DNA from: a bacterium
Lineage (GTDB): Bacteria > Campylobacterota > Campylobacteria > Campylobacterales > Sulfurimonadaceae
Direction of reading: 5' to 3'
Length of the DNA stretch: 64,000 nt
Assembly (NCBI GenBank): GCA_018822665.1
Contig: JAHJJX010000027.1
Location: forward strand, 248,001 to 312,000
Positions within the stretch are counted from its first letter, which is position 1; each line of letters starts with the position of its first letter. Under the pieces are notes generated by a model that saw nothing but the letters and a program-made list of their open reading frames with translations, did not search any database and was not told the DNA's origin. Made by a program: the position numbers and the translations under genes. Of the stretch, positions 4,450-20,204 are shown in pieces.

Positions 4450-7047
4450 ATGGATAAGCACTTCAATAAGCTCTCTTCACTTATTTTAGGAACTTCATTA
4501 ATTGCAACAGTAGCGTCTGCTGGCGATGGTGAGTTACAAAAAGTAATGAAAGCAAGAGGTTTAACGGAAAATGATGTAATTCGTGCTGCAAAAACTTATA
4601 ATCCTACCGGCGGTAGAGATGAGTTTATTGTATTTAGTTCAGGTGGACAAAGTGGACAAGTAATTGTTTATGGTGTTCCATCAATGAGAATTTTAAAATA
4701 TATTGCTGTATTCACACCTGAACCATGGCAAGGCTACGGTTTTGATGAAGATTCATTAGCCGTATTAAGACAAGGGAATATTAGAGGCAGAGAGATTAAC
4801 TGGGGAGATACACACCACCCTGCTCTTTCTGAAAAAGACGGTAAATATGATGGTAAGTGGCTGGCAATTAACGATAAAGCAAATCCTCGTATTGCTATTA
4901 TTGACTTAGAAGATTTTGAAACGAAGCAAATTGTTGTGAATCCAGTTTTTAAATCGGCTCATGGTGGTGCTTTTTATACACAAAATTCTGAGTATATCAT
5001 TGAAGCTGCACAATATGCTGCTCCATTTGATAACGACTATCACCCAATCGAAGAATATAAAGAAACTTACCGCGGTGGTGTAACCATGTGGAAGTTTGAC
5101 AATAAAAAAGGTCGTATTCAAGAAAAAGAATCTTTCACGATTGAAATGCCTCCATATATGCAAGATTTAAGTGATGCAGGAAAAGGTGTTTCTGATGGTT
5201 GGGGTTTTACAAACTCATTTAATACAGAAATGTACACAGGTGGAATCGAAGTTGGTATGCCACCAAACGAAGCCGGTATGAGTAGAAATGATACTGACTT
5301 TTTGCATATTTATGACTGGAAAACACTGGCAAAACTTGCAGAAGATAAAAAAAATGTAAAAATTGTCAACGGACATAAAATCATCCCTATGGATGTTGCG
5401 GTTAAACATAATGCTTTATTTTTAATTCCAGAACCAAAATCACCACACGGTGTTGACGTTTCTCCTGATGGTGAATATATCACGGTCTGCGGTAAACTAG
5501 ATACACATGCTTCTGTTTTTAAATGGAGTAAAATTAAAGAGCTGATTAAAAATAAAAAATATGCAGGGAAAGACCCTTACGGTATCCCTATCTTAGATAT
5601 GAAATCATCTTTACACGGACAAGTTGAGCTAGGACTTGGGCCATTACACAATCAATACTCAAATGTAGATGGTGAAATTTATACATCTTTATATGTTGAT
5701 AGTCAGATTGTTAAGTGGAACTATAAAACTTTAAAAGTTTTAGATAAAGAAAATGTTCACTATAACGTTGGTCACTTGTGCGGTATGGAAGGTAAATCTG
5801 CCGATCCTCAAGGGAAGTATATTATTTCACTTAATAAACTTGCAATTGACAGATTCCAAAATGTCGGTCCACTTCATCCTCAAAATCACCAGCTAATCGA
5901 TATTAGCGGTAAAACAATGGATTTATTGGTAGATATGCCTTTGCCACTGGGTGAACCTCACCAAGCAGTTGCAATTAGAGCTGAAAAATTACATCCACAT
6001 GTAAGATATCCAATGGGTACAAACTCTAAAACTGGTGAACAACATATTGGTAAAACTTTAGCTGGCCAAGAAAAAATTGTAAGAAAAGGGAACCAAGTTA
6101 CAGTGTATGGAACTATGGTTAGATCTCACATCAATCCTGAGAGAATCACTGTTAATAAAGGTGACGTTGTTACAATGCACTTAACAAACCTTGAAAGAGC
6201 TCAAGATGAAACACATGGTTTTACGGTTGACCATTATAATGTGCACATGTCATTAGAGCCGGGTGAAACTTCAACAATTAAGTTTACTGCCGATATTGAA
6301 GGTGTTTTCCCTTACTATTGTACAGAGTTTTGTTCTGCGCTTCACTTAGAAATGATGGGTTACCTCATGGTAAAAGACCCTAATAAAAAATATGTGAGTG
6401 CTCAAAAATTAAAAATGCAAACAATGACTCAAGCAGAACTCAAAGCTGAGTACGACAAAACTGTTGCTGTAAACGCTGCGACTGATGCAGTTATTCAAAG
6501 TGTTGTTGCTTTCTTAAAAGAAAATAAATTTGGTGATCACAAAGTTGTTGCTGCTCTAGTAACAGATGCGTTTGACCAATATGGACAAATTCCGGCACAG
6601 AAAAAACTAGCTGATGAAGCTGTTAAAGCTGGTGATTTGGAAAAAGCTATTCTTTTTGAAAATATGATTTGGCAACTTATGGTAAAAACTGCAGACGTTG
6701 GAATCAGAGCTAAAGATGCACTAGTAAGACTTATCGCGACGAAGCAATCACCTGCAGCAAGCTCTGGAGAAAGAGCGTTTAATGAAGGTGGATGTAGCGG
6801 ATGTCACGTAATCGGTAAAGTATCTTCAGGTCCAGACCTTACGGGTGCACTGCAAAGACATGAAAATGCTGAAAAATGGGTTAGAAACTTCATCATGGAA
6901 CCGGAAAAAATGTATGATGATCCATACGTTAAAAGTATGATTGATTACTTTAACCTAAAAATGCCTAATCAGCATATGAGTGAAAAAGAAACAAAAGATA
7001 TTATCGAATATCTTAAATGGATAGACGAAAATGCGAATTTATTCTAA
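4450..7047 (+). CDS. nosZ: Nitrous oxide reductase NosZ, Sec-dependent clade II form with fused cytochrome c
   Basis: Periplasmic multicopper enzyme that reduces N2O to N2. At 865 residues it is longer than typical NosZ. A Sec signal peptide (cleavage near ASA-GDG) replaces the Tat signal of clade I enzymes. The N-terminal beta propeller carries the CuZ histidines, including DTHHPALS near residues 120-127. The cupredoxin domain has the CuA set C624, C628, H632 and M635 in YYCTEFCSALHLEMM. A C-terminal cytochrome c domain has CSGCH at 782-786, a fusion known from Wolinella and related epsilonproteobacteria. The gene has a strong AAGGAG site and its own FNR-type promoter, and is followed by hairpins. 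Confidence 0.98.
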   Translation: MDKHFNKLSSLILGTSLIATVASAGDGELQKVMKARGLTENDVIRAAKTYNPTGGRDEFIVFSSGGQSGQVIVYGVPSMRILKYIAVFTPEPWQGYGFDEDSLAVLRQGNIRGREINWGDTHHPALSEKDGKYDGKWLAINDKANPRIAIIDLEDFETKQIVVNPVFKSAHGGAFYTQNSEYIIEAAQYAAPFDNDYHPIEEYKETYRGGVTMWKFDNKKGRIQEKESFTIEMPPYMQDLSDAGKGVSDGWGFTNSFNTEMYTGGIEVGMPPNEAGMSRNDTDFLHIYDWKTLAKLAEDKKNVKIVNGHKIIPMDVAVKHNALFLIPEPKSPHGVDVSPDGEYITVCGKLDTHASVFKWSKIKELIKNKKYAGKDPYGIPILDMKSSLHGQVELGLGPLHNQYSNVDGEIYTSLYVDSQIVKWNYKTLKVLDKENVHYNVGHLCGMEGKSADPQGKYIISLNKLAIDRFQNVGPLHPQNHQLIDISGKTMDLLVDMPLPLGEPHQAVAIRAEKLHPHVRYPMGTNSKTGEQHIGKTLAGQEKIVRKGNQVTVYGTMVRSHINPERITVNKGDVVTMHLTNLERAQDETHGFTVDHYNVHMSLEPGETSTIKFTADIEGVFPYYCTEFCSALHLEMMGYLMVKDPNKKYVSAQKLKMQTMTQAELKAEYDKTVAVNAATDAVIQSVVAFLKENKFGDHKVVAALVTDAFDQYGQIPAQKKLADEAVKAGDLEKAILFENMIWQLMVKTADVGIRAKDALVRLIATKQSPAASSGERAFNEGGCSGCHVIGKVSSGPDLTGALQRHENAEKWVRNFIMEPEKMYDDPYVKSMIDYFNLKMPNQHMSEKETKDIIEYLKWIDENANLF

Positions 7048-8152: not shown

Positions 8153-9370
8153 ATGTTAAGAATTTTCTTTATATTTCATGTATTCATATTAAGCTTACTC
8201 AGTGCGAATACATTGCAGAATGCAATTGACAATGCCCCGGAAGGTTCTATTTTAAAACTCTCAGCTGGTATTTATAAAGGAAATATTCTTATAAACAAGC
8301 CGATAACCATTATTGGCATAGAAGACGGGGTAATCATTGACGGAGAAGGCAAAGGCACCGTCATAACAACAAAAGGTTCCTATATTACCTTAAAAAATTT
8401 AAAAATTATTGGCAGTGGTGACAGGCATGAAAATCTTGATTCTGCTATTACAATGCAAGAGGGCAAACAATGTGAAATAAGCAATTGTGTTATAGAAGAT
8501 TGTCTCTTTGGTATTGATGCTCAAATGATAAACAATTCTATTATTTCAAATAATAAAATAACTTCAAAAGATTTAGACTTAGGTCTTCGAGGTGATGGAT
8601 TAAGACTTTGGTATAGCAATGATAATATTATAAAAAACAACTCTTTGATAAAATCTCGGGATATGGTAATATGGTATTCTCATGGTAACGAAATTGTAGA
8701 AAACTATGGAGAATATTGCAGATATTCTCTACATTTTATGTATGCAGGTAAAAACATAATAAAAAACAATCACTATAAATTCAATAGTGTCGGTATCTTT
8801 TTTATGTATTCAAAAGACAGTATTGCAATTGGAAATGTTGTCAAAAGCTCTCTAGGGGCTACGGGTATGGGAATAGGCTTAAAAGATGTTTCAAATTTTA
8901 CTCTACAAGACAACACTGTTATTTACTGCGCACAAGGAATGTATATTGACCGGTCTCCGTTTGAACCGGACACAAAAAATTGGATTACGGGAAATAAGTT
9001 CCTCTATAATGCAGAAGCGTTGCATTTTCACTCACTGAGTGAAAATAACGTTATTAAAAATAATACGATAATGGGCAATATAGAAGATATTGTCAATGAT
9101 AGCAGGGGAAGCAAAACCAATGAAAATGAAATTGTTGGAAACTACTGGGACAATTACGTAGGATTTGATAGAAACGGTGACAATATCGGTGATACTACTC
9201 ATAGAGTGTACCAGTACGCTGATCAACTTTGGATTTATAATCCTGACGTAAAGTTTTTTTATGGTTCACCGGTTATTTCGCTGCTTAATTTTTTAGCCAA
9301 ACTAGCTCCCTTTACAAAACCGCTTTTTTTGCTAGAAGATGAAAAACCAAAAGTTAGGATAGAAGGATAA
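8153..9370 (+). CDS. nosD: Copper-site maturation protein NosD
   Basis: Periplasmic protein needed for assembly of the CuZ cluster of NosZ, working with the NosFY ABC transporter. A signal peptide (cleavage near LLSA-NTL) is followed by a right-handed parallel beta-helix of CASH type. Its repeated N-x-I-x-x-N rungs run from about residue 45 to 330. The 405-residue length is normal. The C-terminal region (GNYWDNYVGFDRNGDNIGDT) is typical of NosD. It lies 20 bases after nosB and 2 bases before nosG. Confidence 0.93.
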   Translation: MLRIFFIFHVFILSLLSANTLQNAIDNAPEGSILKLSAGIYKGNILINKPITIIGIEDGVIIDGEGKGTVITTKGSYITLKNLKIIGSGDRHENLDSAITMQEGKQCEISNCVIEDCLFGIDAQMINNSIISNNKITSKDLDLGLRGDGLRLWYSNDNIIKNNSLIKSRDMVIWYSHGNEIVENYGEYCRYSLHFMYAGKNIIKNNHYKFNSVGIFFMYSKDSIAIGNVVKSSLGATGMGIGLKDVSNFTLQDNTVIYCAQGMYIDRSPFEPDTKNWITGNKFLYNAEALHFHSLSENNVIKNNTIMGNIEDIVNDSRGSKTNENEIVGNYWDNYVGFDRNGDNIGDTTHRVYQYADQLWIYNPDVKFFYGSPVISLLNFLAKLAPFTKPLFLLEDEKPKVRIEG

Positions 9371-9372
9371 AT

Positions 9373-10113
9373 ATGGCAACGGTACAAACAGACAGAAGAA
9401 AATTTGTTCAATACTCAACACTTGGGATATTGGGGCTAGTACTTGGCGGAGGAATGCTATTTTCCCCTTACCCGCTAAGAGCAGAAAATAGATTAAGACC
9501 CCCCGGTGCAGTGGCTGAAGATAGATTTTTGGCTTTATGCATTAAATGTGGTCAATGCTTGCAGGTCTGCCCTTATCACTCTATAAAATTAGCAGATTTT
9601 GCACATGGACACGGTGTTGGCACACCTTATATTGATGCAAACGAAAGGGGATGTTATGCATGTAGTGCGGTTCCTTGCGTTTTGGCATGCCCTAGTGGCG
9701 CTTTAGACCACCATTGTGAAAAACCCGCTGACATACACATGGGTATAGCAGTATTGGAATTTCCTGATACCTGCATCGCCATGAGTAATACACCTATCCC
9801 AAAAGGATACAATAATAAAATGCATAGTTTTACTGATTCTGCGAGAAATGTGACAGAATTAGAAACTAAACTTCTCACAAAACTAGATGAGTTTGAAGCA
9901 AAACAGTGTACCTTATGTGCTGATATGTGTCCGCTTGAGAACCCGCTGAGTGCCATTGCAATGGTGCCGGATGCTAAAGGCGGAAATCGTCCTGAAATCT
10001 ATGATGGTTGTATAGGTTGCGGAGTATGTCAAGAAGTTTGCCTAACGAGCATCCCTTCAATCGTAGTGAAGCCAAGAGTAACCTACGAGCAATATTATGC
10101 AAATAAAAATTAG
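9373..10113 (+). CDS. nosG: Periplasmic-type ferredoxin NosG (NapG-like)
   Basis: An iron-sulfur protein proposed to pass quinol electrons toward NosZ together with NosH. The N-terminus has a twin-arginine motif (TDRRKFVQYS) before a hydrophobic stretch, so Tat export is likely. Four [4Fe-4S] motifs are visible: CIKCGQCLQVCP, CYACSAVPCVLACP, CTLCADMCP and CIGCGVCQEVC. The architecture and length match NapG of periplasmic nitrate reductase systems; the nos context decides the name. Confidence 0.92.
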   Translation: MATVQTDRRKFVQYSTLGILGLVLGGGMLFSPYPLRAENRLRPPGAVAEDRFLALCIKCGQCLQVCPYHSIKLADFAHGHGVGTPYIDANERGCYACSAVPCVLACPSGALDHHCEKPADIHMGIAVLEFPDTCIAMSNTPIPKGYNNKMHSFTDSARNVTELETKLLTKLDEFEAKQCTLCADMCPLENPLSAIAMVPDAKGGNRPEIYDGCIGCGVCQEVCLTSIPSIVVKPRVTYEQYYANKN

Positions 10114-10122
10114 GAAATTAAA

Positions 10123-10749
10123 ATGAAATTAAATAATTCAAAATTAAGTGTTCACAGCCTGCTTCTTGCTTCTAGCTTTTTACTTTATGTTTCCATTACA
10201 GGATGCAGTGACGATAATGGCGCGAACAAAGAGAGTTCTTTACCAAAAGAGCAAACGACTCCAAAGATTGAAGTTGTTAAAAATGAAAATGCAAAAGAGA
10301 TAAAAGTAAAAGCTAAAGAGACTGATGCCAATCAAAGTAAATCCTATTATTATGACTACAATATAAAAAGTGAATATAACGTAAATTCTCAACCGGCCAA
10401 TGAAGATGCTGCGGTGAGAGTGAAGCCAAGAAGCAGCATAGATGCAAATATGCATGTAAGAAGTCCTTACGAAAAAATACAAGTATCCTTACTCGTAAAT
10501 AAACTAAGTAAAGAATTTATCGTCAAATGTTCCGCTTGTCACAATGACTATGCAAATGGGATCATTGGACCTTCTCTTCTTTCCAAAGACGCTGATTATA
10601 TTTTTGATAAAATTGAACAATATAAAAATGGTAAAAAAGAAAATGTACTCATGAATGATCTCGTTAAAATGATGAGCAAAGAAGAAATTCGAAAATTAGC
10701 TGATGAAATATATGAATTCAACAAACAAATAAACACTCTAAGGAAATAA
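10123..10749 (+). CDS. nosC1: Monohaem cytochrome c lipoprotein NosC1
   Basis: The N-terminus has a hydrophobic signal and a lipobox ending SITGC, so the protein should be lipid-anchored on the periplasmic side. A charged, low-complexity linker of about 110 residues follows. A small cytochrome c domain then carries CSACH. In clade II clusters two small cytochromes, C1 and C2, lie between nosG and nosH and are proposed to connect the menaquinol side to NosZ. It shares the segment KNGKKENVLMNDL with a similar stretch in the next gene, which suggests duplication. The spacing to nosC2 is 1 base. Confidence 0.88.
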   Translation: MKLNNSKLSVHSLLLASSFLLYVSITGCSDDNGANKESSLPKEQTTPKIEVVKNENAKEIKVKAKETDANQSKSYYYDYNIKSEYNVNSQPANEDAAVRVKPRSSIDANMHVRSPYEKIQVSLLVNKLSKEFIVKCSACHNDYANGIIGPSLLSKDADYIFDKIEQYKNGKKENVLMNDLVKMMSKEEIRKLADEIYEFNKQINTLRK

Positions 10750-10750
10750 A

Positions 10751-11257
10751 ATGAAAAATATAATTGTAGCTTTTTTTACACTGCTTGTCCTTGCACTCAT
10801 GGCCTGGACAGCTTCGGGTGGCCGTGCTTATCATGGTGGTGAACATGCAAAAGTCATTGAAGATTTTGGCGATACTATGACAAACGCAGCCTCAACAACA
10901 AAACCTGAAGAAAAATCAGACAGAGAAAAAGAAAATGAAGCACTCGGTGCGCTAAGAGATAAAGCAGGCAATGCCGGGGCTTTTAAAGTAAGCCAAGAAT
11001 ATAAAAGCAAATGTGCCTCTTGTCACGGTGTAAACGGTTCTGGTGAACAAAATGGCAAAAAGCTCATGGGACCTAAACTCTTTGGACAAAGCAGTGAAGC
11101 AATTTATAAAAATTTAGTAGACTTTAAAGATGGCAGAAAAGAAAATATGATTATGAAAGGTCTCCTGATTCAGCTTAATGAAGATGATTTAAAAAGATTT
11201 TCCGATGAAATTGGAGAGTTTCCAGACAGAGCCAAAGAGATACAAGAAAATAACTAA
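10751..11257 (+). CDS. nosC2: Monohaem cytochrome c NosC2
   Basis: A 168-residue cytochrome c with an uncleaved or cleaved N-terminal hydrophobic helix (about 3-20) and a polar linker. One haem motif, CASCHG, is followed by MGPKLFGQ. The C-terminal helix region (FKDGRKENMIMKGLL) resembles the equivalent part of NosC1, and its methionine is a plausible sixth ligand. It is probably an electron carrier between NosGH or the bc1 complex and NosZ. Confidence 0.88.
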   Translation: MKNIIVAFFTLLVLALMAWTASGGRAYHGGEHAKVIEDFGDTMTNAASTTKPEEKSDREKENEALGALRDKAGNAGAFKVSQEYKSKCASCHGVNGSGEQNGKKLMGPKLFGQSSEAIYKNLVDFKDGRKENMIMKGLLIQLNEDDLKRFSDEIGEFPDRAKEIQENN

Positions 11258-11280
11258 AACTCAAGGAAACGGGATTTAAA

Positions 11281-12186
11281 ATGGATAAGTATAACAATAG
11301 AGAAACTATAGAAAAAACAACATTTTGGTCAACATTCTTCGATACAACAAGAGAAGGGAAATCAAAATTCAGCTACAGAATGAAGAGATGGATTTTAGTT
11401 ATATCTATTCATCTTCTATTTTTCCTGTCATTTTTTATAGATTTGCAGATGTTAGAAGGCACTCTTAACGGTTCCAGATTTTTGGGATTTCATTTGATTG
11501 ATCCTTTTACCACGCTTGAGGTTTTTTTAGCAACTTTCCACATGCCAATCAATATAGTGATTGGCACGCTCACCATAGTAGTTATCTATCTACTCGTTGG
11601 AGGACGAACGTATTGTGCTTGGGTATGTCCTTATGGAATTCTCAGTGAAATAGGTGAAAAACTGCATAATACTTTGGTAGCAAAAAAAATAATCAAAAGC
11701 AGAAAATTCGACCATAGAGTGAGACATTTCTTTTGGGCGATTTTCTTAATTCTATCTTTTACAAGCGGTTACTTAGTCTTTGAGACTTTTAATGTAGTCG
11801 GTATTTTAAGCAGAATGATTGCTTATGGCTGGAGTGTCGCTTTTATTTGGGTGCTAAGTGTCTTTTTAATTGAAGTATTTTACTCCCGTCGCGCATGGTG
11901 TACATATATCTGCCCTATAGGAACGACGTATGGCTATCTTGGAAAAATAAGTGCCTTAAGAATTGAGTGGAATGACAACTGTGACCACTGTATGGTATGC
12001 CATGATGTATGTTTTGAAAATCAAGTTCTAGAGATTGTAAAAGCGAAGTACGATAAGCAAAGGGAAGAAAAAGGGATTACCAAAGAGTATATTACGGGAA
12101 ATGACTGTACTCTCTGCGGTAGATGTATAGATGTTTGTCATACAGATGCTCTCAACTTCGACTTTAGACTAAAAAGTTTGGTATAA
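11281..12186 (+). CDS. nosH: Membrane polyferredoxin NosH (NapH-like)
   Basis: An inner-membrane iron-sulfur protein expected to oxidise menaquinol and pass electrons to NosG. It has about four to five transmembrane helices. The CxxxCP motifs typical of NapH/NosR/RdxA proteins are present (CAWVCPYG and CTYICPIG). Two C-terminal [4Fe-4S] motifs follow, CDHCMVCHDVC and CTLCGRCIDVC. The 301-residue length fits NapH. The stop is 3 bases before nosF. Confidence 0.92.
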   Translation: MDKYNNRETIEKTTFWSTFFDTTREGKSKFSYRMKRWILVISIHLLFFLSFFIDLQMLEGTLNGSRFLGFHLIDPFTTLEVFLATFHMPINIVIGTLTIVVIYLLVGGRTYCAWVCPYGILSEIGEKLHNTLVAKKIIKSRKFDHRVRHFFWAIFLILSFTSGYLVFETFNVVGILSRMIAYGWSVAFIWVLSVFLIEVFYSRRAWCTYICPIGTTYGYLGKISALRIEWNDNCDHCMVCHDVCFENQVLEIVKAKYDKQREEKGITKEYITGNDCTLCGRCIDVCHTDALNFDFRLKSLV

Positions 12187-12189
12187 AAC

Positions 12190-12828
12190 ATGATAAAAGT
12201 ATCACAGTTAACAAAAAAATTTGGTTCTCATCTATCATTAGACAACGTAAGTTGTGAATTTAAAAAAAATGAGTCTATAGCTTTAATGGGTGCGAATGGT
12301 GCCGGAAAAACGACACTCATACGTTCAATACTTGGATATTACCATCCAAATTACGGTGAAGTGCTTATCAATGGATTAAACCCTGTTAAAGAGCGTGTGA
12401 AAGTTTTAGAGAGCATCAGTTTTGTTCCCCAGCTGCCGCCTCCAATAAAATTAAACCTTGATGAGCTGATGCAGTACATCAGCATAAGTGCAAAAGTTGA
12501 TAAAGATTTAATTATGCATTATGCTAACGAGATGAAGCTTGATGTAAAAGAAAACCTTTATAAATCATTTTTCAAACTCAGCGGGGGAATGAAACAAAAA
12601 ATGCTTATTGCTATCAGTTTGGCAAAAAACAGCAGTATCATTATTTATGATGAGCCGACGGCAAATCTTGACCCTAAGGCACGCGATGATTTTTACAGAT
12701 TGTTAAAGCAAAATGAGGATGAAAAAATACTTCTGTTTGTGACGCATAGACTTGAAGAAGTAAAAGACTTAGTCAATAGACAAATTTATATGGATCTTGG
12801 AAAAGTGGTCTCGGATGAAAGATTATAA
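12190..12828 (+). CDS. nosF: ABC transporter ATPase NosF
   Basis: A 212-residue cytoplasmic ATPase that powers NosY in maturation of the NosZ copper centre. The Walker A GANGAGKTT is near residues 34-42, followed by the signature LSGGMKQKM, Walker B IIIYDEPTANLDP and a switch histidine in THRLEE. The C-terminus overlaps the start of the next gene by 14 bases, so the two are probably translationally coupled. Confidence 0.95.
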   Translation: MIKVSQLTKKFGSHLSLDNVSCEFKKNESIALMGANGAGKTTLIRSILGYYHPNYGEVLINGLNPVKERVKVLESISFVPQLPPPIKLNLDELMQYISISAKVDKDLIMHYANEMKLDVKENLYKSFFKLSGGMKQKMLIAISLAKNSSIIIYDEPTANLDPKARDDFYRLLKQNEDEKILLFVTHRLEEVKDLVNRQIYMDLGKVVSDERL

Positions 12829-13282
12829 ATATTTTTTCTTTATTTGCAGTTTTACACTGCTAATATTTTTAAGTGCCTGTAACTCTTCGAATGCTTCAGT
12901 GCAAAGCAGTAAAGAAGATTTAAAAATCTGTCCTCAGTGTCATATGGAAGTAACACATACAAACCTTCATACCGCCATTCTTAAGCAGGATAATCGTCTG
13001 CACTATTTTGATGATGTAGGATGTATGGTGATATGGCTGAGTAAAAATAATATTGATATCGAAGAAGTCACTATAAAAGTCTTTTCAAACGACACCAATA
13101 AATATGTAGAAGCCTCAGGTGCTTACTATAAAATAAACGAAAAAACTCCAATGTTATATGGATTTTCTGCGTATGAAAATTATCAAGAAAACTCCATACC
13201 TTTAAATGAGGTAATACTTAAAATGCTCAGAGGTGAGCATATGGCAAATCCAAAAATCAGAAAACAGATACTTGGGTATTAA
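12815..13282 (+). CDS. nosL: NosL-family lipoprotein (first copy)
   Basis: NosL proteins are outer-face Cu(I)-binding lipoproteins that supply copper for NosZ. The start is the ATG at 12815, inside the end of nosF. A hydrophobic signal and a lipobox (FLSAC) come first, then the NosL core: CPQCHME, a pair of beta strands, YFDDVGCMVIWL, and a C-terminal YGFSAYEN segment. The CxxC...M set could bind Cu(I). It sits between nosF and nosY, interrupting the FY pair, which is unusual. Confidence 0.85.
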   Translation: MKDYKYFFFICSFTLLIFLSACNSSNASVQSSKEDLKICPQCHMEVTHTNLHTAILKQDNRLHYFDDVGCMVIWLSKNNIDIEEVTIKVFSNDTNKYVEASGAYYKINEKTPMLYGFSAYENYQENSIPLNEVILKMLRGEHMANPKIRKQILGY

Positions 13283-13290
13283 GGACAAAT

Positions 13291-14118
13291 ATGAAGAATT
13301 TAATTTTAATCGCCTATTTAGATTTGAAAGAATCCATTAGAGCGAAGTGGTTTGTGGTTTATTCTCTGGTGTTTGGAGGTCTTATTGCCCTCTTTTTTAT
13401 TGCAGGTGTTACTGAATCTCAAGTTATGGGATTCAGCGGCTTAAGCAGACTTCTCTTAATGTATATTCAAATTACAATAGTAATCTTACCTATTTTTATA
13501 CTCATAACAACCGTGAGGTCCATCTCTGGTGACAGGGACAATCATATTTTAGAATATATGCTTTCTTTTCCTATCTCACTCAAACAGTACTACTGGGGGA
13601 AAGTAATAGGTCGTTTTATTACCGTATATATTCCGGTGGTTTTTGCCATGATTATTGCTATAGTTTATGGGGCGTTTAAGGGTGCGATAATTCCGTGGAG
13701 TATTTTCTTTTTATATACGGGGCTTCTTTTTGCCCTCTCGAGTGCATTCTTGGGAATTGCTTTTTTTGTATCTTCTTTTGTTAAATCCTCGGAAGTTGCA
13801 CTTGGAATTGCATTTTTTATATGGATTTTTTTACTTGCATTTATAGATATTGCGCTTATCTCTTTAATGATGCAACAAAGGTTTAATGAAGAGCTCATCA
13901 TTTTAATCGCCATGCTCAACCCAATGGAGATTTTCAGAGTGGCCGCTATTTCACTTTTTGACCCAGAGCTTACGGTTATGGGACCGGTAGCATTTTATAT
14001 ACTTGATTCTATGAGTCAAAGTGTATTTATACTTGTGTCCATCGGCTATCCCTTAACAATCGGATTAGTTTTTGCGTTCCTCGGATTTAAGATATTTGAG
14101 AAAAAAGATTTAGTTTAA
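13291..14118 (+). CDS. nosY: ABC transporter permease NosY
   Basis: A 275-residue ABC-2 type permease with six predicted transmembrane helices and a conserved cytoplasmic loop (SGDRDNHILEYMLSFPIS) that couples to NosF. NosFY are thought to export a sulfur-containing compound used with NosD and NosL to build the CuZ site. It starts 8 bases after the preceding NosL gene and is in the same operon. Confidence 0.93.
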   Translation: MKNLILIAYLDLKESIRAKWFVVYSLVFGGLIALFFIAGVTESQVMGFSGLSRLLLMYIQITIVILPIFILITTVRSISGDRDNHILEYMLSFPISLKQYYWGKVIGRFITVYIPVVFAMIIAIVYGAFKGAIIPWSIFFLYTGLLFALSSAFLGIAFFVSSFVKSSEVALGIAFFIWIFLLAFIDIALISLMMQQRFNEELIILIAMLNPMEIFRVAAISLFDPELTVMGPVAFYILDSMSQSVFILVSIGYPLTIGLVFAFLGFKIFEKKDLV

Positions 14119-14129
14119 CAGGAGTTATT

Positions 14130-14600
14130 ATGCGTAAAATAGTTATCGGAATGATTTTAGTATCCACATTTTTATTTGGATTTTCAATGGAATATAATAA
14201 AGAAACAGCCTGCTTGGTTAGAAACTTTAAAGTCCATAAAGGGCCTCAATGGGTAGCGAAGATAGAGCTTACAAATGAAAAAGAGGTATTTTTTTCAAGC
14301 CCAAAATCTATGTTTGAATTTTATTTTGTACCCGGTAAATGGTTTGATGTCGGTGTTAAAAGTGAAAAAGATTTCAAAGAAATTCTTGTTACTGATTTTA
14401 ATACGCTCAAACCAATCAAGGCCAAAAGTGCTTTTTTTGTTTATGGAAGCAATGTCACGTCTCCTGCGGGTGATGACTTGGTCCCATTTGATTCCTATAA
14501 AGACGCTCAGAATTTTGCTAAAAAACATAACGGGAAAAGAGTGTTTAGCTTCAAAGAAGTGAGCGACCCTCTCATTCGACTACTCAACGGAAGGATATAA
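14130..14600 (+). CDS. NosL-like protein lacking the usual CxxC site (second copy)
   Basis: The protein has an N-terminal signal segment and the NosL fold, recognisable in WVAKIEL, SMFEFYFVPGKW, ILVTDFNTLKPIKAKSAFFVYGS and the C-terminal DAQNFAKKHNGKRVFSF. It is close to the second NosL domain of the protein at 19033-20172. Where NosL has CPVCGM it reads TACLVRNF, so only one cysteine of the metal site remains. It may bind copper differently or act as a structural partner. It lies at the normal nosL position, directly after nosY. Confidence 0.82.
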   Translation: MRKIVIGMILVSTFLFGFSMEYNKETACLVRNFKVHKGPQWVAKIELTNEKEVFFSSPKSMFEFYFVPGKWFDVGVKSEKDFKEILVTDFNTLKPIKAKSAFFVYGSNVTSPAGDDLVPFDSYKDAQNFAKKHNGKRVFSFKEVSDPLIRLLNGRI

Positions 14601-15405: not shown

Positions 15406-15861
15406 TTATTTTCCTATTTGCACAACTCTTTTTACAACCTCGTGAAAATCAACAACTTCTTCCCCTTCTTTAATCGTACTTTTTGTTTTATGTGCACTAA
15501 AACCGTATGCCATTGAAGTGATGTTTTGTGTATCATAGAATGCTTTTCTTGCATCTATCCATTCACCGTTATTAACATCTGTTATCCATATAACCGCTTT
15601 ATCTTTCCATTCAATATTCTCATCGATGAACCAAAGAGCCATACAGCCTATGTCATCAAACATATATTTTTTACCGTTTTGCGGATTTCTAACCTGTACT
15701 GTATTTTTTCTGTCACTTACAACCATAACGCACCTCGCGCACATGTCTCTGTCCCAGTGAACTTCGCCCACTGCAACCTTAGACCTTTCTTCGCAACCCG
15801 TAAAAAGTGATACAAAAACTAAAGAAGAAAAAATGGAAAACACAAGCCCTGACAATCTCAT
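15406..15861 (-). CDS. NosL-family lipoprotein (third copy)
   Basis: A 151-residue predicted lipoprotein with a hydrophobic N-terminus and lipobox LFTGC. The NosL core includes MCARCVMVV, then MFDDIGCMALWF and MAYGFSAHK. It is closer in layout to the copy at 12815 than to the others. It is transcribed toward the nos operon and lies 35 bases after the membrane-protein gene at 15897, so it may be the last gene of that minus-strand operon. It is probably a Cu(I) carrier on the periplasmic side. Confidence 0.85.
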   Translation of the reverse strand: MRLSGLVFSIFSSLVFVSLFTGCEERSKVAVGEVHWDRDMCARCVMVVSDRKNTVQVRNPQNGKKYMFDDIGCMALWFIDENIEWKDKAVIWITDVNNGEWIDARKAFYDTQNITSMAYGFSAHKTKSTIKEGEEVVDFHEVVKRVVQIGK

Positions 15862-15896
15862 ACAATAACCCCGCTTTATATAAATTTATAAATATT

Positions 15897-16856
15897 TTAA
15901 AGCCATACGCCATTTTTCAAATAATAAAAAAGCGGATATGCGCTGAGCAATATAACATAAAGAAAATTAAACACCAATGACATCCTGTAACTTACATTTC
16001 TATCTTTTTGAGATGCTTCAATAAAGCCTACAATCAGCCCGTAAAATGTGCCGATAAAAAGAGATGTATAGATTAAATAGCCGACATAATAGTAATCTTT
16101 TTGCAAGAAACAAAACGGGCAGTGATGTGTCGGAAGTTCATAGATATAGGTTCCAAAAAATGCTATGAGTGCGATAATTCCCACAATAATAAAAACTATG
16201 TTGCTTATCGCAAAAAGATATCTGTTTTTTAGGAAATAAAAGAGAAGCAAAAGTGCAAAATTACCATAGAACAGAGCTAACAAGACAGGTGTTTGTATGG
16301 AAAAAATATTAGATACATAAGAGGTAGCGGAGCTTGAATACAAGGTTCCGCAGCAGCTGACCATCTTGTCGATGTCAATGGAGCTAAACATAACACCCTC
16401 AAGGAGAAGTTCCGATATAAAAAGAAAAAATGCCAAAATAAAAATACCGAATTTAACTTTTGTATAGGGTTGATTCTCATGTTTAATATCTTCATTATGC
16501 AAAACAAGCCAAAAAGCAAAAAGATATAAATTGATTATTTTAAGTATAAAAAGAGGTGTGCCGTATTCTGTGGCGTCCACGACACCTGCCCCGCACATAG
16601 CACCCGTAAGCAAATGAGATATTTTATCAAGGGTAAAAATAAAAAATAAAAAAAGAGGCACTTTTATAACAAAAATATATTTGATAATCGTTGCCGTTAA
16701 AAAACTCTGTTTTTCAAGTTCGTATTGTGTCTGGCATGTGGAATTCAAATCCCATTTCAGAAATATTTTAACACTTAAAACAAAAGCTATGACAGCAAAA
16801 AATATAAAAAGTACATTTAATATAAAAAGGGTGAGAACTTCGGGAATAAAAATCAT
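15897..16856 (-). CDS. Polytopic membrane protein of unknown function in the NosL-ABC operon
   Basis: A 319-residue protein with about eight hydrophobic helices. I do not recognise a named family. Several cysteines stand out: MCGAG (about 85), VSCCGT (about 168) and HHCPFC (about 247). The CxxC preceded by two histidines near a membrane face could bind metal or be redox-active. It overlaps the ABC ATPase start by 4 bases, so it is part of that transporter's operon. Confidence 0.75.
   Translation of the reverse strand: MIFIPEVLTLFILNVLFIFFAVIAFVLSVKIFLKWDLNSTCQTQYELEKQSFLTATIIKYIFVIKVPLFLFFIFTLDKISHLLTGAMCGAGVVDATEYGTPLFILKIINLYLFAFWLVLHNEDIKHENQPYTKVKFGIFILAFFLFISELLLEGVMFSSIDIDKMVSCCGTLYSSSATSYVSNIFSIQTPVLLALFYGNFALLLLFYFLKNRYLFAISNIVFIIVGIIALIAFFGTYIYELPTHHCPFCFLQKDYYYVGYLIYTSLFIGTFYGLIVGFIEASQKDRNVSYRMSLVFNFLYVILLSAYPLFYYLKNGVWL
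16733..16742 (+). repeat. GGCATGTGGA repeat (in NosL-ABC membrane protein gene)
   Basis: CTGGCATGTGGAATT; it reads STC in NSTCQTQ. It is the first copy of the motif in the window. Confidence 0.78.
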
Positions 16857-17524
16857 CTGAGTATTTTTCCATTGTGAATTTCTATCTCTCTATCTACAAA
16901 ATCAAGATTAAAAAAGAGTGGGTCATGCGTTGCTATTATAATTGTTTTATTTAATAATTTGAGTTCCCTTAACATCTCAATAAAATGCAGAGAAAGTTTT
17001 TCATCAAGATTCGCCGTAGGTTCATCCGCAATGATGATTTTAGGGTCGTTTACATAAGAGCGAGCGATAGCGACGCGCTGCTGTTCTCCGCCGGAAAGGT
17101 TGCGAACCAAAACATCTTTTTTGTGCGCAATGTTAAATCTTTGCATCACTTTTTGCAGTTTTTCATCCACTAAATCGGCATGTGGATTTAAAGGTATCAA
17201 AGGCAGCAACACATTGTCTTTCACGCTGAGCGTAGGTATGAGATTATATTTTTGAAAGATAAAACCTATGTTATCACGTCTGTATATGGATGCAAAATAA
17301 TCAGGAAGTTTTGATATCTTTTTAGAGTCTACAATCACCTCCCCGTTTGTCGGTTTGCTCAAAGCGGCAATAAGTGAAAGAATAGTGCTTTTACCACTTC
17401 CGCTAGCGCCCTTTAGCACAACTAACTCACCTTCTTGTATGGTAAGATTAATCGCATCTAAAGCGATAAGCTTCTCATTTTTGTTCACGTCATATATTTT
17501 GCTTATATTTTTAAGTTCTATCAT
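16853..17524 (-). CDS. ABC transporter ATPase, LolD/MacB type
   Basis: A 223-residue ATPase with Walker A GASGSGKST near residues 39-47, Q-loop FQKYNL, signature LSGGEQQR, Walker B IIADEPTANLD and switch histidine ATHDP. These are the features of the MacB/LolD/FtsE branch, which drives mechanotransmission through FtsX-like permeases rather than classical transport. It abuts the permease gene at base 17524 (1-base overlap). The partner NosL proteins suggest copper-site assembly or copper export. Confidence 0.92.
   Translation of the reverse strand: MIELKNISKIYDVNKNEKLIALDAINLTIQEGELVVLKGASGSGKSTILSLIAALSKPTNGEVIVDSKKISKLPDYFASIYRRDNIGFIFQKYNLIPTLSVKDNVLLPLIPLNPHADLVDEKLQKVMQRFNIAHKKDVLVRNLSGGEQQRVAIARSYVNDPKIIIADEPTANLDEKLSLHFIEMLRELKLLNKTIIIATHDPLFFNLDFVDREIEIHNGKILR
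17177..17186 (+). repeat. GGCATGTGGA repeat (in ABC ATPase gene)
   Basis: TCGGCATGTGGATTT; it reads PHA in LNPHADLV of the LolD/MacB-type ATPase. Confidence 0.75.
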
Positions 17525-18711
17525 TATCTTATCACTTCGTCTGCTTCAAGTGTTGCTACTTTCCAGGATGGAATGATTGTCGCAGCTATATAGATTGGAA
17601 CACTTAATAAAAATACTAAAAACAGTGTTTGAAAATCAAAAACAAAAGGAAGTTCAAACCTTGTTTTCAACTGAGAATAACCAACAAAGACATCTCTAAG
17701 CAAGGGAGCCTGAAATAGATATACATAGGCCAATGCCAGCCCTACTCCAAGCGTGTATGCAAAAAATGAGATTATAAATGATTCATAGAACTTCTCTTTA
17801 AGGACATCATCCACAGTCCAGCCGACTGCTTTGAGTATCCCTATCTCTCTTTTTTCTTCATTGCTGAGTCCACTTGATTTATCATATATTATGATGAAAA
17901 AAGTAAAAAGAGACACAATAAAAAGTGCCAAAAAAATTCCACTTTTATAATCAAAAATATTTTGGTAACTTACTTTCAAGTCTTGGTTTGTAACGATTCT
18001 GGTATCTGGATACATCAATTTTATTTTCGATGCTACCGTTTGTATCTCCTGAGGATTTTCAACCCTGACAACAATATCGGTCGCTTTTGACTCAGGGATA
18101 TCAAATATTTCCCTGAGTGTTTCTTTTGAGAGAACTATCATATCGTTGGATTCTAAATTTGTATCCGAGTCAAATACTCCTGCTAAATTTACTTTTTTTA
18201 AAGTTCCGTCGGGTTTAATAAAATTAAAATACTCTTTATAATAATTTTGTTGCATTGTTTGATAAACTCCCTCCCCCGCAACCATAAAAGAGTCATCTTC
18301 ATTGTGTGTCAAATCAAACTTTTCTACAATACTCTCAAAACTGTTTTTATACTGTTTTTCGTACTGCTCAATCCCCACAAGACTAAAATTTACCCCTGCA
18401 TTTTCAAAATAATAATATCCCCAGACCCGGGCAACGGCATCGCTGACTCCGGCTATTTCAAGGATTCCGTCTACCGAACTAACATCAATGTCATAATGTC
18501 TTCCTGCTTTAATCTTTTGTACAATAATCTGAGGAAGTGCATCTACCGTAGACTCCAGCTCATGCTTAATAGAATTTGTAATAAAAAAGACAGAAGTTAA
18601 AAGAAAGGTGAGAAGCATAAAAACACTCACTATAAAAAAACTTTTGTATTTTTGTCTTAGCACCGCATTGATTGCATACTCGATAAGATATACATTTATT
18701 TTATTTTTCAT
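17524..18711 (-). CDS. FtsX/MacB-like ABC permease
   Basis: A 395-residue permease with one N-terminal helix, a periplasmic domain of about 210 residues (MacB periplasmic core type), and three C-terminal helices. The motif EKREIGILKAVGWT before the third segment is the usual coupling region. It is the membrane partner of the ATPase at 16853. No outer-membrane or adaptor (MacA-like) gene is next to it, so its substrate path is unclear. The gene order (two-domain NosL, small protein, permease, ATPase, membrane protein) is compact. Confidence 0.9.
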   Translation of the reverse strand: MKNKINVYLIEYAINAVLRQKYKSFFIVSVFMLLTFLLTSVFFITNSIKHELESTVDALPQIIVQKIKAGRHYDIDVSSVDGILEIAGVSDAVARVWGYYYFENAGVNFSLVGIEQYEKQYKNSFESIVEKFDLTHNEDDSFMVAGEGVYQTMQQNYYKEYFNFIKPDGTLKKVNLAGVFDSDTNLESNDMIVLSKETLREIFDIPESKATDIVVRVENPQEIQTVASKIKLMYPDTRIVTNQDLKVSYQNIFDYKSGIFLALFIVSLFTFFIIIYDKSSGLSNEEKREIGILKAVGWTVDDVLKEKFYESFIISFFAYTLGVGLALAYVYLFQAPLLRDVFVGYSQLKTRFELPFVFDFQTLFLVFLLSVPIYIAATIIPSWKVATLEADEVIR

Positions 18712-18728
18712 TCATCTATCTCTTGCAT

Positions 18729-19040
18729 TTATTTATTTATAATGTGGGAATGTGATATTGTATACGTTGATGGAAAATATTCTCTCAAACTGCCGTCATC
18801 TTTATAGATAGAAAAAATATCACTCAAACTTCTATGTCGAATGTATGTTGCTTCTGTTGATATTGCCAAATCAGGCAGACCCGACAAGGCAACAAAAGCC
18901 ATTTTTTTCTCAAGCATCTTGGTGTTTATACCCTTTTGGCTGCTTAAATACAACCCTTGCAAAACAACACCGGTCAATAAAGTTAAAAATATAAATCCAA
19001 GGGTTCTTGTTTTTTGAGTGTAATTACTTTTTTTATTCAT
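18729..19040 (-). CDS. Small single-TM protein of the NosL-ABC operon
   Basis: A 103-residue protein with one hydrophobic helix at about residues 12-30 and a periplasmic tail of about 70 residues. I do not recognise it. The tail ALSGLPDLAISTEATYIRHRS is conserved-looking and contains no cysteines. It overlaps the preceding NosL gene by 8 bases and lies 17 bases before the permease, which supports it as a real gene and a possible accessory subunit. Confidence 0.7.
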   Translation of the reverse strand: MNKKSNYTQKTRTLGFIFLTLLTGVVLQGLYLSSQKGINTKMLEKKMAFVALSGLPDLAISTEATYIRHRSLSDIFSIYKDDGSLREYFPSTYTISHSHIINK

Positions 19041-20172
19041 CGAGTTTAGAAACTTCTTGCGGTGTTATCTCTTCAAACTTTATAAGTTTTGAACCCCTGT
19101 GATCCTTATAAAAAGTTTGTGCATCATTCTCATTTTCAAAAGGAATAAGTTCATTTCCCATCGGACCGTACACATCACTTCCAAGGACAAAATATGCCTT
19201 TTTTGCTTCTATGGCTTTTTGTGAATAATAATCCGTAACTAAAATTTTTGTAATGTCACCTTTTGTTTTCACTTCATAATTTCCCCACTCCGCAGGATTA
19301 AAGTAAAACTTCATTAAATCTTTAACTCCGTCAAATGAATAGCGGTGTTCTTTTTTATTTATCTCATAAAAAATTTGTGCGGCCCATTTTGGATATTTAT
19401 ATATAAACATGCCGCAAACCGGGCATTTTTCTTCCTCTGTTACTTGAATTTTCCCATTCGTCTTCTCCAAGTCGCCGAATCTTTTGAGTTCCCAAAGGTA
19501 AAGCGCTACGGCTTGAAGCTGTTGTTCTTTTAAAGGCTTGCATAATTTCTTATTTTGCAGTGCCGATTTTAATTCATTTATTGCACCGTATTTATTTATA
19601 TCGATATCTAAAAGGCACATTTTTTCAAATATAGTTTGCCCCATAGGATATATTTTTTTTGTTTTTTTTGCAGTTATCATCTCTGTATCGGAGACTAAGG
19701 ATTCTTTTGCATTTTTTAAAGCAGATTCAAAATCGACTATCTGCCCTTTATATTCTTTTACAAAGTTTTTAGCATCGGATTGACTTGCAAAGGCAAATTT
19801 ACTAACTTTACTCATAGTGCCCTCCACCGTAGAGCCAAGTACGTAAAAAGCTGTTTTTGCTTTGATAAGTTTTTGTGTAGAAGCATCGACAACCTGAATC
19901 TCATTCACGTCTATGGGATGCGTATCCATATCTACCGCAAGACATCGCATTGAGCAGTATTGCCTGTGCGTATCATCATCTGATTTTGAGGCATGAGAAG
20001 TTTTATAAAACATTTTAAGATTCATTCCGCAAACACAGCACCAATGCTTTTCATCACCTTTTTGAACGAGAACGGGCTCGGATGAGGCTGATTTTGTAAA
20101 AGTGCCTGCACTTAAAGAAAGAGAGGCAAAAAGAAGAATTGTGATGAAGATAACTATTTTTTTTATGAACAT
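19033..20172 (-). CDS. Two-domain NosL-family protein
   Basis: The 379-residue protein has a signal peptide (cleavage near LSA-GTF) and two NosL domains. The first carries CCVCGMNL and a second pair, YCSMRCLAVD (about 45-150). A linker of about 70 residues follows (including KLCKPLKEQQLQAVALYLWELKR, cytochrome-like but without CxxCH). The second domain carries CPVCGMFIY (about 250-370) and ends with the DAQTFYKDHRGSKLIKFEE segment shared with the copy at 14130. It is the first gene of the operon and could donate or accept Cu(I) at two sites. Confidence 0.87.
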   Translation of the reverse strand: MFIKKIVIFITILLFASLSLSAGTFTKSASSEPVLVQKGDEKHWCCVCGMNLKMFYKTSHASKSDDDTHRQYCSMRCLAVDMDTHPIDVNEIQVVDASTQKLIKAKTAFYVLGSTVEGTMSKVSKFAFASQSDAKNFVKEYKGQIVDFESALKNAKESLVSDTEMITAKKTKKIYPMGQTIFEKMCLLDIDINKYGAINELKSALQNKKLCKPLKEQQLQAVALYLWELKRFGDLEKTNGKIQVTEEEKCPVCGMFIYKYPKWAAQIFYEINKKEHRYSFDGVKDLMKFYFNPAEWGNYEVKTKGDITKILVTDYYSQKAIEAKKAYFVLGSDVYGPMGNELIPFENENDAQTFYKDHRGSKLIKFEEITPQEVSKLDE

Positions 20173-20181
20173 AAAACTTCC

Positions 20182-20204
20182 TAACTAATAAAAATTATTA
20201 GTTA
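20182..20204. promoter_or_regulatory. Palindromic operator before the NosL-ABC operon
   Basis: Perfect 10-base arms, TAACTAATAA (20182-20191) and TTATTAGTTA (20195-20204), are separated by AAA. The palindrome lies 10 to 32 bases upstream of the two-domain NosL start, over the likely promoter. Its form differs from the FNR-type boxes of the nos operon, so a different regulator (for example a metal-responsive one) is likely. Confidence 0.6.

Follow-up and report, generated by a model that had tools for sequence, protein, structure and literature searches.

The enzyme NosZ reduces nitrous oxide (N2O), a greenhouse gas. In the NosDFY-NosL system a NosL copper chaperone accompanies an ATP-binding cassette (ABC) transporter, and the client is a periplasmic copper enzyme. 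LolCDE and MacB belong to a mechanotransmission superfamily of ABC transporters. The mcc cluster of Wolinella succinogenes specifies the haem-copper sulfite reductase MccA. We describe a six-gene operon with likenesses to each of these, found in a 64,000-nucleotide stretch of a Campylobacterota genome (family Sulfurimonadaceae; GenBank assembly GCA_018822665.1, contig JAHJJX010000027.1, positions 248,001 to 312,000), hereafter the window. The operon lies on the minus strand, from position 20172 to 15406, and encodes from first gene to last a two-domain NosL protein, a small protein with a single transmembrane (TM) segment, a permease, an ATPase, a polytopic protein of eight TM segments and a NosL-like lipoprotein.

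The operon shares with NosDFY-NosL the pairing of NosL with an ABC transporter, but it is not NosDFY: its permease carries the FtsX domain (PF02687) rather than being an ABC-2 protein like NosY, the beta-helix protein NosD is absent from the operon, and the eight-TM cysteine protein is extra. Likeness to LolCDE and MacB rests in the permease fold, but here a single permease and a separate ATPase fall far below the lolCE, LolD and MacB equivalog cut-offs and have NosL partners. The Wolinella succinogenes mcc cluster includes the operon genes; the window copy differs in being linked to nos genes. Sulfurospirillum cavolei has, between the nosL and nosY of its nos cluster, an insertion of five genes that include an ABC permease, an ATPase and hypothetical genes (PMC4794192). 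The available part of that paper reports it only as additional predicted genes; we liken it, by arrangement rather than sequence, to two of the genomes below (G252, G255). The initial annotation knew of no characterized example of such a system. We too found no functional study in the open-access literature searched, but the genes themselves are partly in print: in that S. cavolei nos cluster and, by position, in the mcc cluster, for which Kern et al. 2011 may name them.

On balance we lean to the view that the operon encodes an ATP-driven inner-membrane complex that delivers copper to periplasmic respiratory copper enzymes and whose client can be swapped. In many related genomes the adjoining genes point to copper loading of respiratory enzymes outside the inner membrane, NosZ included but not exclusively. 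The proposal that this is a periplasmic copper-handling machine distinct from NosDFY finds support, both in the copper motif of its NosL proteins and in its copper-enzyme or copper-factor neighbours.

Two samples were used for distribution: 60 relatives (marginal matches in G037 and G059, with E about 7e-4, were left out of this tally) and 240 near-complete Campylobacterota genomes. The strictest partner of the operon is MccA. Canonical MccA, with 62-100% identity to the query, was found in 39 of the 240 genomes, and the polytopic protein in all 39. In 38 of them the polytopic gene lies 9,353-12,730 bp from mccA, start to start; in the remaining one (G228) mccA sits at a contig edge. The mapped mcc-linked loci read mccABCD-ccsA1-Sel1-NosL-FtsX-ATPase-polytopic-NosL, with small open reading frames (ORFs) between in some, so the gene order beside canonical mccA in relatives is that of the window, where the copy itself is nos-linked; MccA had no match in the window's genome. 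In G046, mccA is followed by an FKBP gene, a Fer4 gene, an nrfD-like gene, a ResB/CcmC fusion and Sel1, then the operon; its mccA product has seven CxxCH motifs and one CX15CH and matches PDB 4rkm. The MccA of G213 is identical to 4rkm over 692 aa, an identity to a crystallized protein that places the operon within the published mcc cluster. We take 4rkm to be the Wolinella enzyme, and the two non-haem cysteines of MccA to be copper ligands.

The MccA-type sulfite reductase is listed as a cuproenzyme (PMC7558416); the available part of PMC6976685 mentions neither copper nor an ABC transporter. Genome G055 has an mcc cluster without mccA, mccB or a full mccC, the last being shortened, and its downstream operon is intact (L156, L061). 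That cluster adjoins an apparent IS21-type gene pair. In G213, nosZ reads as two separate pieces (G213:C1:870539-874421).

The association with nosZ is real and looser. Among the 60 relatives the polytopic protein was strong in 39, of which 20 have nosZ and 19 do not, and 4 of the 24 nosZ genomes are without it. In the larger sample the polytopic protein occurs in 83 genomes, nosZ in 73 and both in 56. By genus, nosZ is present in 17/24 of those with the polytopic protein and 3/31 of those without (Fisher 3e-6). Neither gene depends on the other, since nosZ is missing from 27 of the 83 genomes and the polytopic protein from 17 of the 73. A function for NosZ alone is rejected on the same counts, and the NosZ specificity that had been offered as one alternative is not supported by them or by the 19 of 39 among the relatives. 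The suggested survey of co-occurrence did show that the operon is not one found mostly in genomes without nosZ, in either sample, but it is plainly no nos gene set. The cbb3 oxidase gene ccoN accompanies the polytopic protein in 38 of 39 relatives, versus 15 of the 21 without it (Fisher 0.006); this test is weak, because ccoN is near universal and relatedness was uncontrolled.

In the window the nos set lies on the plus strand at lower coordinates, with nosZ at 4450-7047 and the NosDFY-L set at 8153-14600. In other genomes the operon stands between nosF/nosL and nosY in three genomes (G252, G255, G263) and after nosY/nosL2 in six (G039, G110, G241, G270, G266, G264). G252 and G255 hold three copies apiece, one linked to nos, one linked to mcc and one standing alone. 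In G252 the nos-linked and stand-alone copies are nearly identical to each other, as a recent duplication would leave them. A second copy in G213 follows genes for CcoG/FixG and SLAC1; CcoG appears as a Cu(II) reductase in PMC7558416. In a tree of 97 polytopic proteins, from 96 fetched loci and the window, with most near-identical copies of genus g11 left out, the mcc copies form one group (SH-aLRT support 96), and nos linkage requires 11 changes when L212 and L225 are not labelled nos; it has thus been gained or lost many times. Genes for di-haem cytochromes of the CCP/MauG type adjoin some stand-alone or split copies (L063:6157-7185, L066:10000-11037, L049:13409-14404).

Among the best 80 of 483 loci, Sulfurimonas and allied metagenome-assembled genomes are the closest relatives that bear a name, and the window probably comes from that genus. 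Of 80 named loci, 21 have a nos neighbour, 21 have an ftsZ neighbour and none has both. Gene calls in mapped loci came from a simple ORF picker with BLAST labels, and short genes may therefore be missed. In the window's genus the operon keeps prmC/htpX as one neighbour, with either ftsZ or nos as the other. That fixed place is what a general envelope operon would show, one unrelated to copper beside which nos clusters have landed by chance. We consider this a very improbable account of the whole, set against the canonical MccA linkage, the insertion inside nos operons in three genomes, and the NosL genes within or adjoining the operon in 81 of 96 loci.

Several observations weigh against copper delivery. 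Because the ftsZ/prmC place is kept with or without nos, adjacency to nos in the window's genus may be partly chance. The 17 nosZ genomes lacking the polytopic protein count here too, as do the 19 of 83 polytopic-protein genomes with neither nosZ nor canonical MccA. A link to multicopper oxidases was tried and dropped, with 12/39 relatives positive among those with the polytopic protein versus 7/21 among those without. A divergent MccA-like octahaem protein (45-51% identity) is present in 34 further genomes. The polytopic protein is found in 4 of these and absent from 30, and no operon gene lies near mccA in 10 of 10 such loci mapped. In all 13 sequences read, both non-haem cysteines are kept and CX15CH is absent. 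This group argues against a universal need of MccA for the operon. In most of the mapped divergent loci (L275-L284) a further multihaem gene, with six CxxCH motifs, comes after the MccA-like gene. A last difficulty concerns NosL: the downstream NosL lacks the CXM motif in 13 of 54 cases, all in mcc-linked loci.

The NosL proteins otherwise fit a copper role. CXM is the likely Cu(I) site of NosL (PMC6530538). The first gene (19033-20172, minus strand) encodes 379 aa with two NosL stretches, scoring 186.7 bits against PF05573 (cut-off 24); it has CXM at 48, 73 and 253 and matches the NosL chains of PDB 7og7 and 7osf. Family score and copper motif together thus place it in NosL, and CXM is present in 75/77 of the upstream NosL proteins of homologous loci. 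The product of the last gene (15406-15861, minus strand; 151 aa) scores 21.8 bits, under the Pfam cut-off, and is called NosL-like; it has a lipobox, FTGC, at 20-23 with cysteine 23, and CXM at 44. Two further NosL-family genes were noted. The second one of the window's nos cluster (14130-14600) has a single cysteine and no CXM, and its product is perhaps, from its sequence, a NosL-fold protein that has lost copper binding. A lone NosL-family lipoprotein gene lies near a dnaK-like gene elsewhere in the window's genome (L158:6279-6782, G000:C4).

The permease (17524-18711, minus strand; 395 aa) has four TM segments and a periplasmic domain, and matches FtsX (PF02687) at 60.2 bits. It had been described as FtsX/MacB-like. 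The FtsX domain and the superfamily fold bear this out, but the fold is nearer to LolC/E than to MacB and the family tests for MacB fail. With an AlphaFold2 (AF2) model (pLDDT 82.4, pTM 0.70), VIA-align matched LolE (9rld_E) over the whole chain, with Z 23.1, 366 residues aligned, 5.6 A and 11% identity; the best MacB match (5lj6) had Z 17.7, 346 aligned and 9.6 A. By this whole-length match of the model the permease belongs to the mechanotransmission superfamily (LolCDE/MacB). The ATPase (16853-17524, minus strand; 223 aa) matches ABC_tran at 124 bits and reaches no NCBIfam cut-off in the 25 families listed of 192. As LolD it is rejected, with 181 bits against an equivalog cut-off of 307.75. 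MacB identity is likewise rejected: ATPase and permease are separate genes, not fused, and no MacA-type adaptor family is found among the six operon genes.

The closeness of the permease to LolE raises the question of whether the operon is a dedicated LolCDE-like release system that sends NosL lipoproteins to the outer membrane. The last gene does encode a predicted lipoprotein, and NosL is considered a likely Lol substrate of the outer membrane (PMC6530538). We nevertheless hold this to be quite unlikely. The permease is rejected as LolC or LolE, with 37.1 bits against the lolCE equivalog cut-off of 362.45, and the window's genome has a better LolC/E candidate (L250) at 249.7 bits, itself under that cut-off. 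There is one permease rather than the LolC and LolE pair, a weak point given that the genome's own LolC/E candidate is also single on its stretch. A lipobox of simple pattern goes unseen in 72/77 upstream and 41/54 downstream NosL proteins. A gene of the NosL-lipoprotein type occurs in 21/21 nos-linked loci versus 0/21 ftsZ-linked ones, a label that may partly hit the nos cluster's own NosL, so stand-alone copies beside ftsZ are without a downstream gene for a NosL lipoprotein. Lipoprotein release also leaves the polytopic protein unexplained.

Efflux is the other activity that the superfamily brings to mind, since it includes the MacB pumps and a copper chaperone here accompanies an export-type ABC permease. 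A copper-efflux or detoxification pump seems to us a far-fetched reading. The operon is linked to clusters for respiratory enzymes; no resistance genes were seen among labelled neighbours in the mapped loci, where most unlabelled neighbours are unannotated; and the missing multicopper-oxidase association and the lack of an adaptor among the six genes speak against it as well.

The polytopic protein (15897-16856, minus strand; 319 aa) is rich in cysteine. Its HHCPFC and SCCG motifs, pointed out initially, are both present along with eight TM segments; a third motif, GAMC, had gone unlisted. GAMC, CC and HxCPxC are all kept in 97/97 homologues read. Pfam and NCBIfam gave no match and the PDB no sequence relative, the plasmids searched had no match to this protein or the permease, and Foldseek returned 0 matches at E<=0.001 for its AF2 model (51 sequences, pLDDT 82.4, pTM 0.79; eight long helices). 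The only VIA-align matches were to generic four-helix bundles, covering residues 1-162 (best Z 13.3), a result that rules out no family. As far as sequence comparison goes we found no named relative, and the protein is a candidate new membrane protein family. In the model the loops with GAMC (C88), CC (C168, C169) and HxCPxC (H244, C246, C249) are all on one side, although the model is poor at the HxCPxC loop. Lys and Arg are more numerous in the loops of the other side in 82/97 homologues, which predicts a periplasmic position for the cysteines.

Such cysteines could instead do redox work, and this is the main competitor of copper delivery. The polytopic protein would then be a membrane thiol-disulfide oxidoreductase, VKOR/DsbB-like in kind and not by homology, acting on cysteines of NosL, of the enzyme or of a haem lyase, and the ABC pair would serve that reaction. 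In its favour are the adjacent CC and the CPxC pair, predicted periplasmic, and invariant tyrosines next to CPxC. Genes of the DsbD_2 (CcdA) type also follow some copies (L057, at 11362-12069; L201, L212, L213, L220, L222, L224, L227), coming after the downstream NosL in several genomes, stand-alone copies included. We find redox chemistry unlikely, if less so than lipoprotein release. His244 and the lone C88 of GAMC look more like metal ligands, and the permease and ATPase are left unexplained. No VKOR or DsbB fold appears among the Foldseek and VIA-align matches listed, an absence that does not exclude one.

From gene content, conservation, the predicted permease fold, predicted topology and the repeated linkage to copper enzymes, we infer copper binding by the eight-helix protein, the path that copper takes, the involvement of ATP and all of the clients, as follows. 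The NosL domains would carry Cu(I) in the periplasm through their CXM sites. The eight-helix protein would hold or pass Cu(I) on the periplasmic face by means of cysteines 88, 168, 169, 246 and 249 with His244. The ATPase and the LolCE/MacB-type permease would act as a mechanical lever, the periplasmic domain of the permease taking Cu(I) from the eight-helix protein or NosL and handing it to either the next chaperone or the apo-enzyme. Location would set the client: MccA in mcc clusters, and NosZ for copies inside or next to a nos cluster, the window's among them. For stand-alone copies it would probably be a different copper enzyme of respiration, cbb3 oxidase for example.

The initial annotation gave a six-gene operon, with overlaps and a single direction; its six ORFs are confirmed in order and place on the minus strand. 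From first gene to last the junctions are -8, +17, -1, -4 and +35 nt, that is, overlaps of 8, 1 and 4 nt at three of the five. The second gene (18729-19040, minus strand) encodes the small protein, of 103 aa and cysteine-free, with its TM segment at 14-32; it has no family match in Pfam or NCBIfam. Just upstream of the first start codon is a perfect 10-bp inverted repeat, TAACTAATAA-3 nt-TTATTAGTTA, at 20182-20204 (no strand assigned). It was proposed as an operator. The palindrome is real: of 2000 mononucleotide shuffles of a 200-bp stretch, 7 produced an inverted repeat of 10 bp with at most 5 nt between its arms. It remains a putative operator, and a conserved operator is rejected, since the motif is absent from the other loci compared save two copies of the same place. 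A promoter scan did no better than chance, with 22 hits against 21.9 expected. In the window's genus a gene for a Crp/FNR-type regulator often adjoins the operon at its downstream end (L038:9777-10406 and similar); the window has none there.

The wider proposal, which we put forward tentatively and hold less firmly than copper delivery itself, is of a new class of metal-insertion machine in which a mechanical ABC transporter of the LolCE/MacB type drives copper between NosL and a new eight-helix copper protein that faces the periplasm, and which has been duplicated and reassigned, to NosZ, MccA and probably cbb3 oxidase, by moving into the operons of its clients. As a single operon is linked to both NosZ and MccA, and some genomes have it three times, the question of copper delivery becomes testable in a genetically tractable bacterium. 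If the proposal is true, it would give mechanotransmission ABC transporters a role in metal delivery and add a new membrane protein family.

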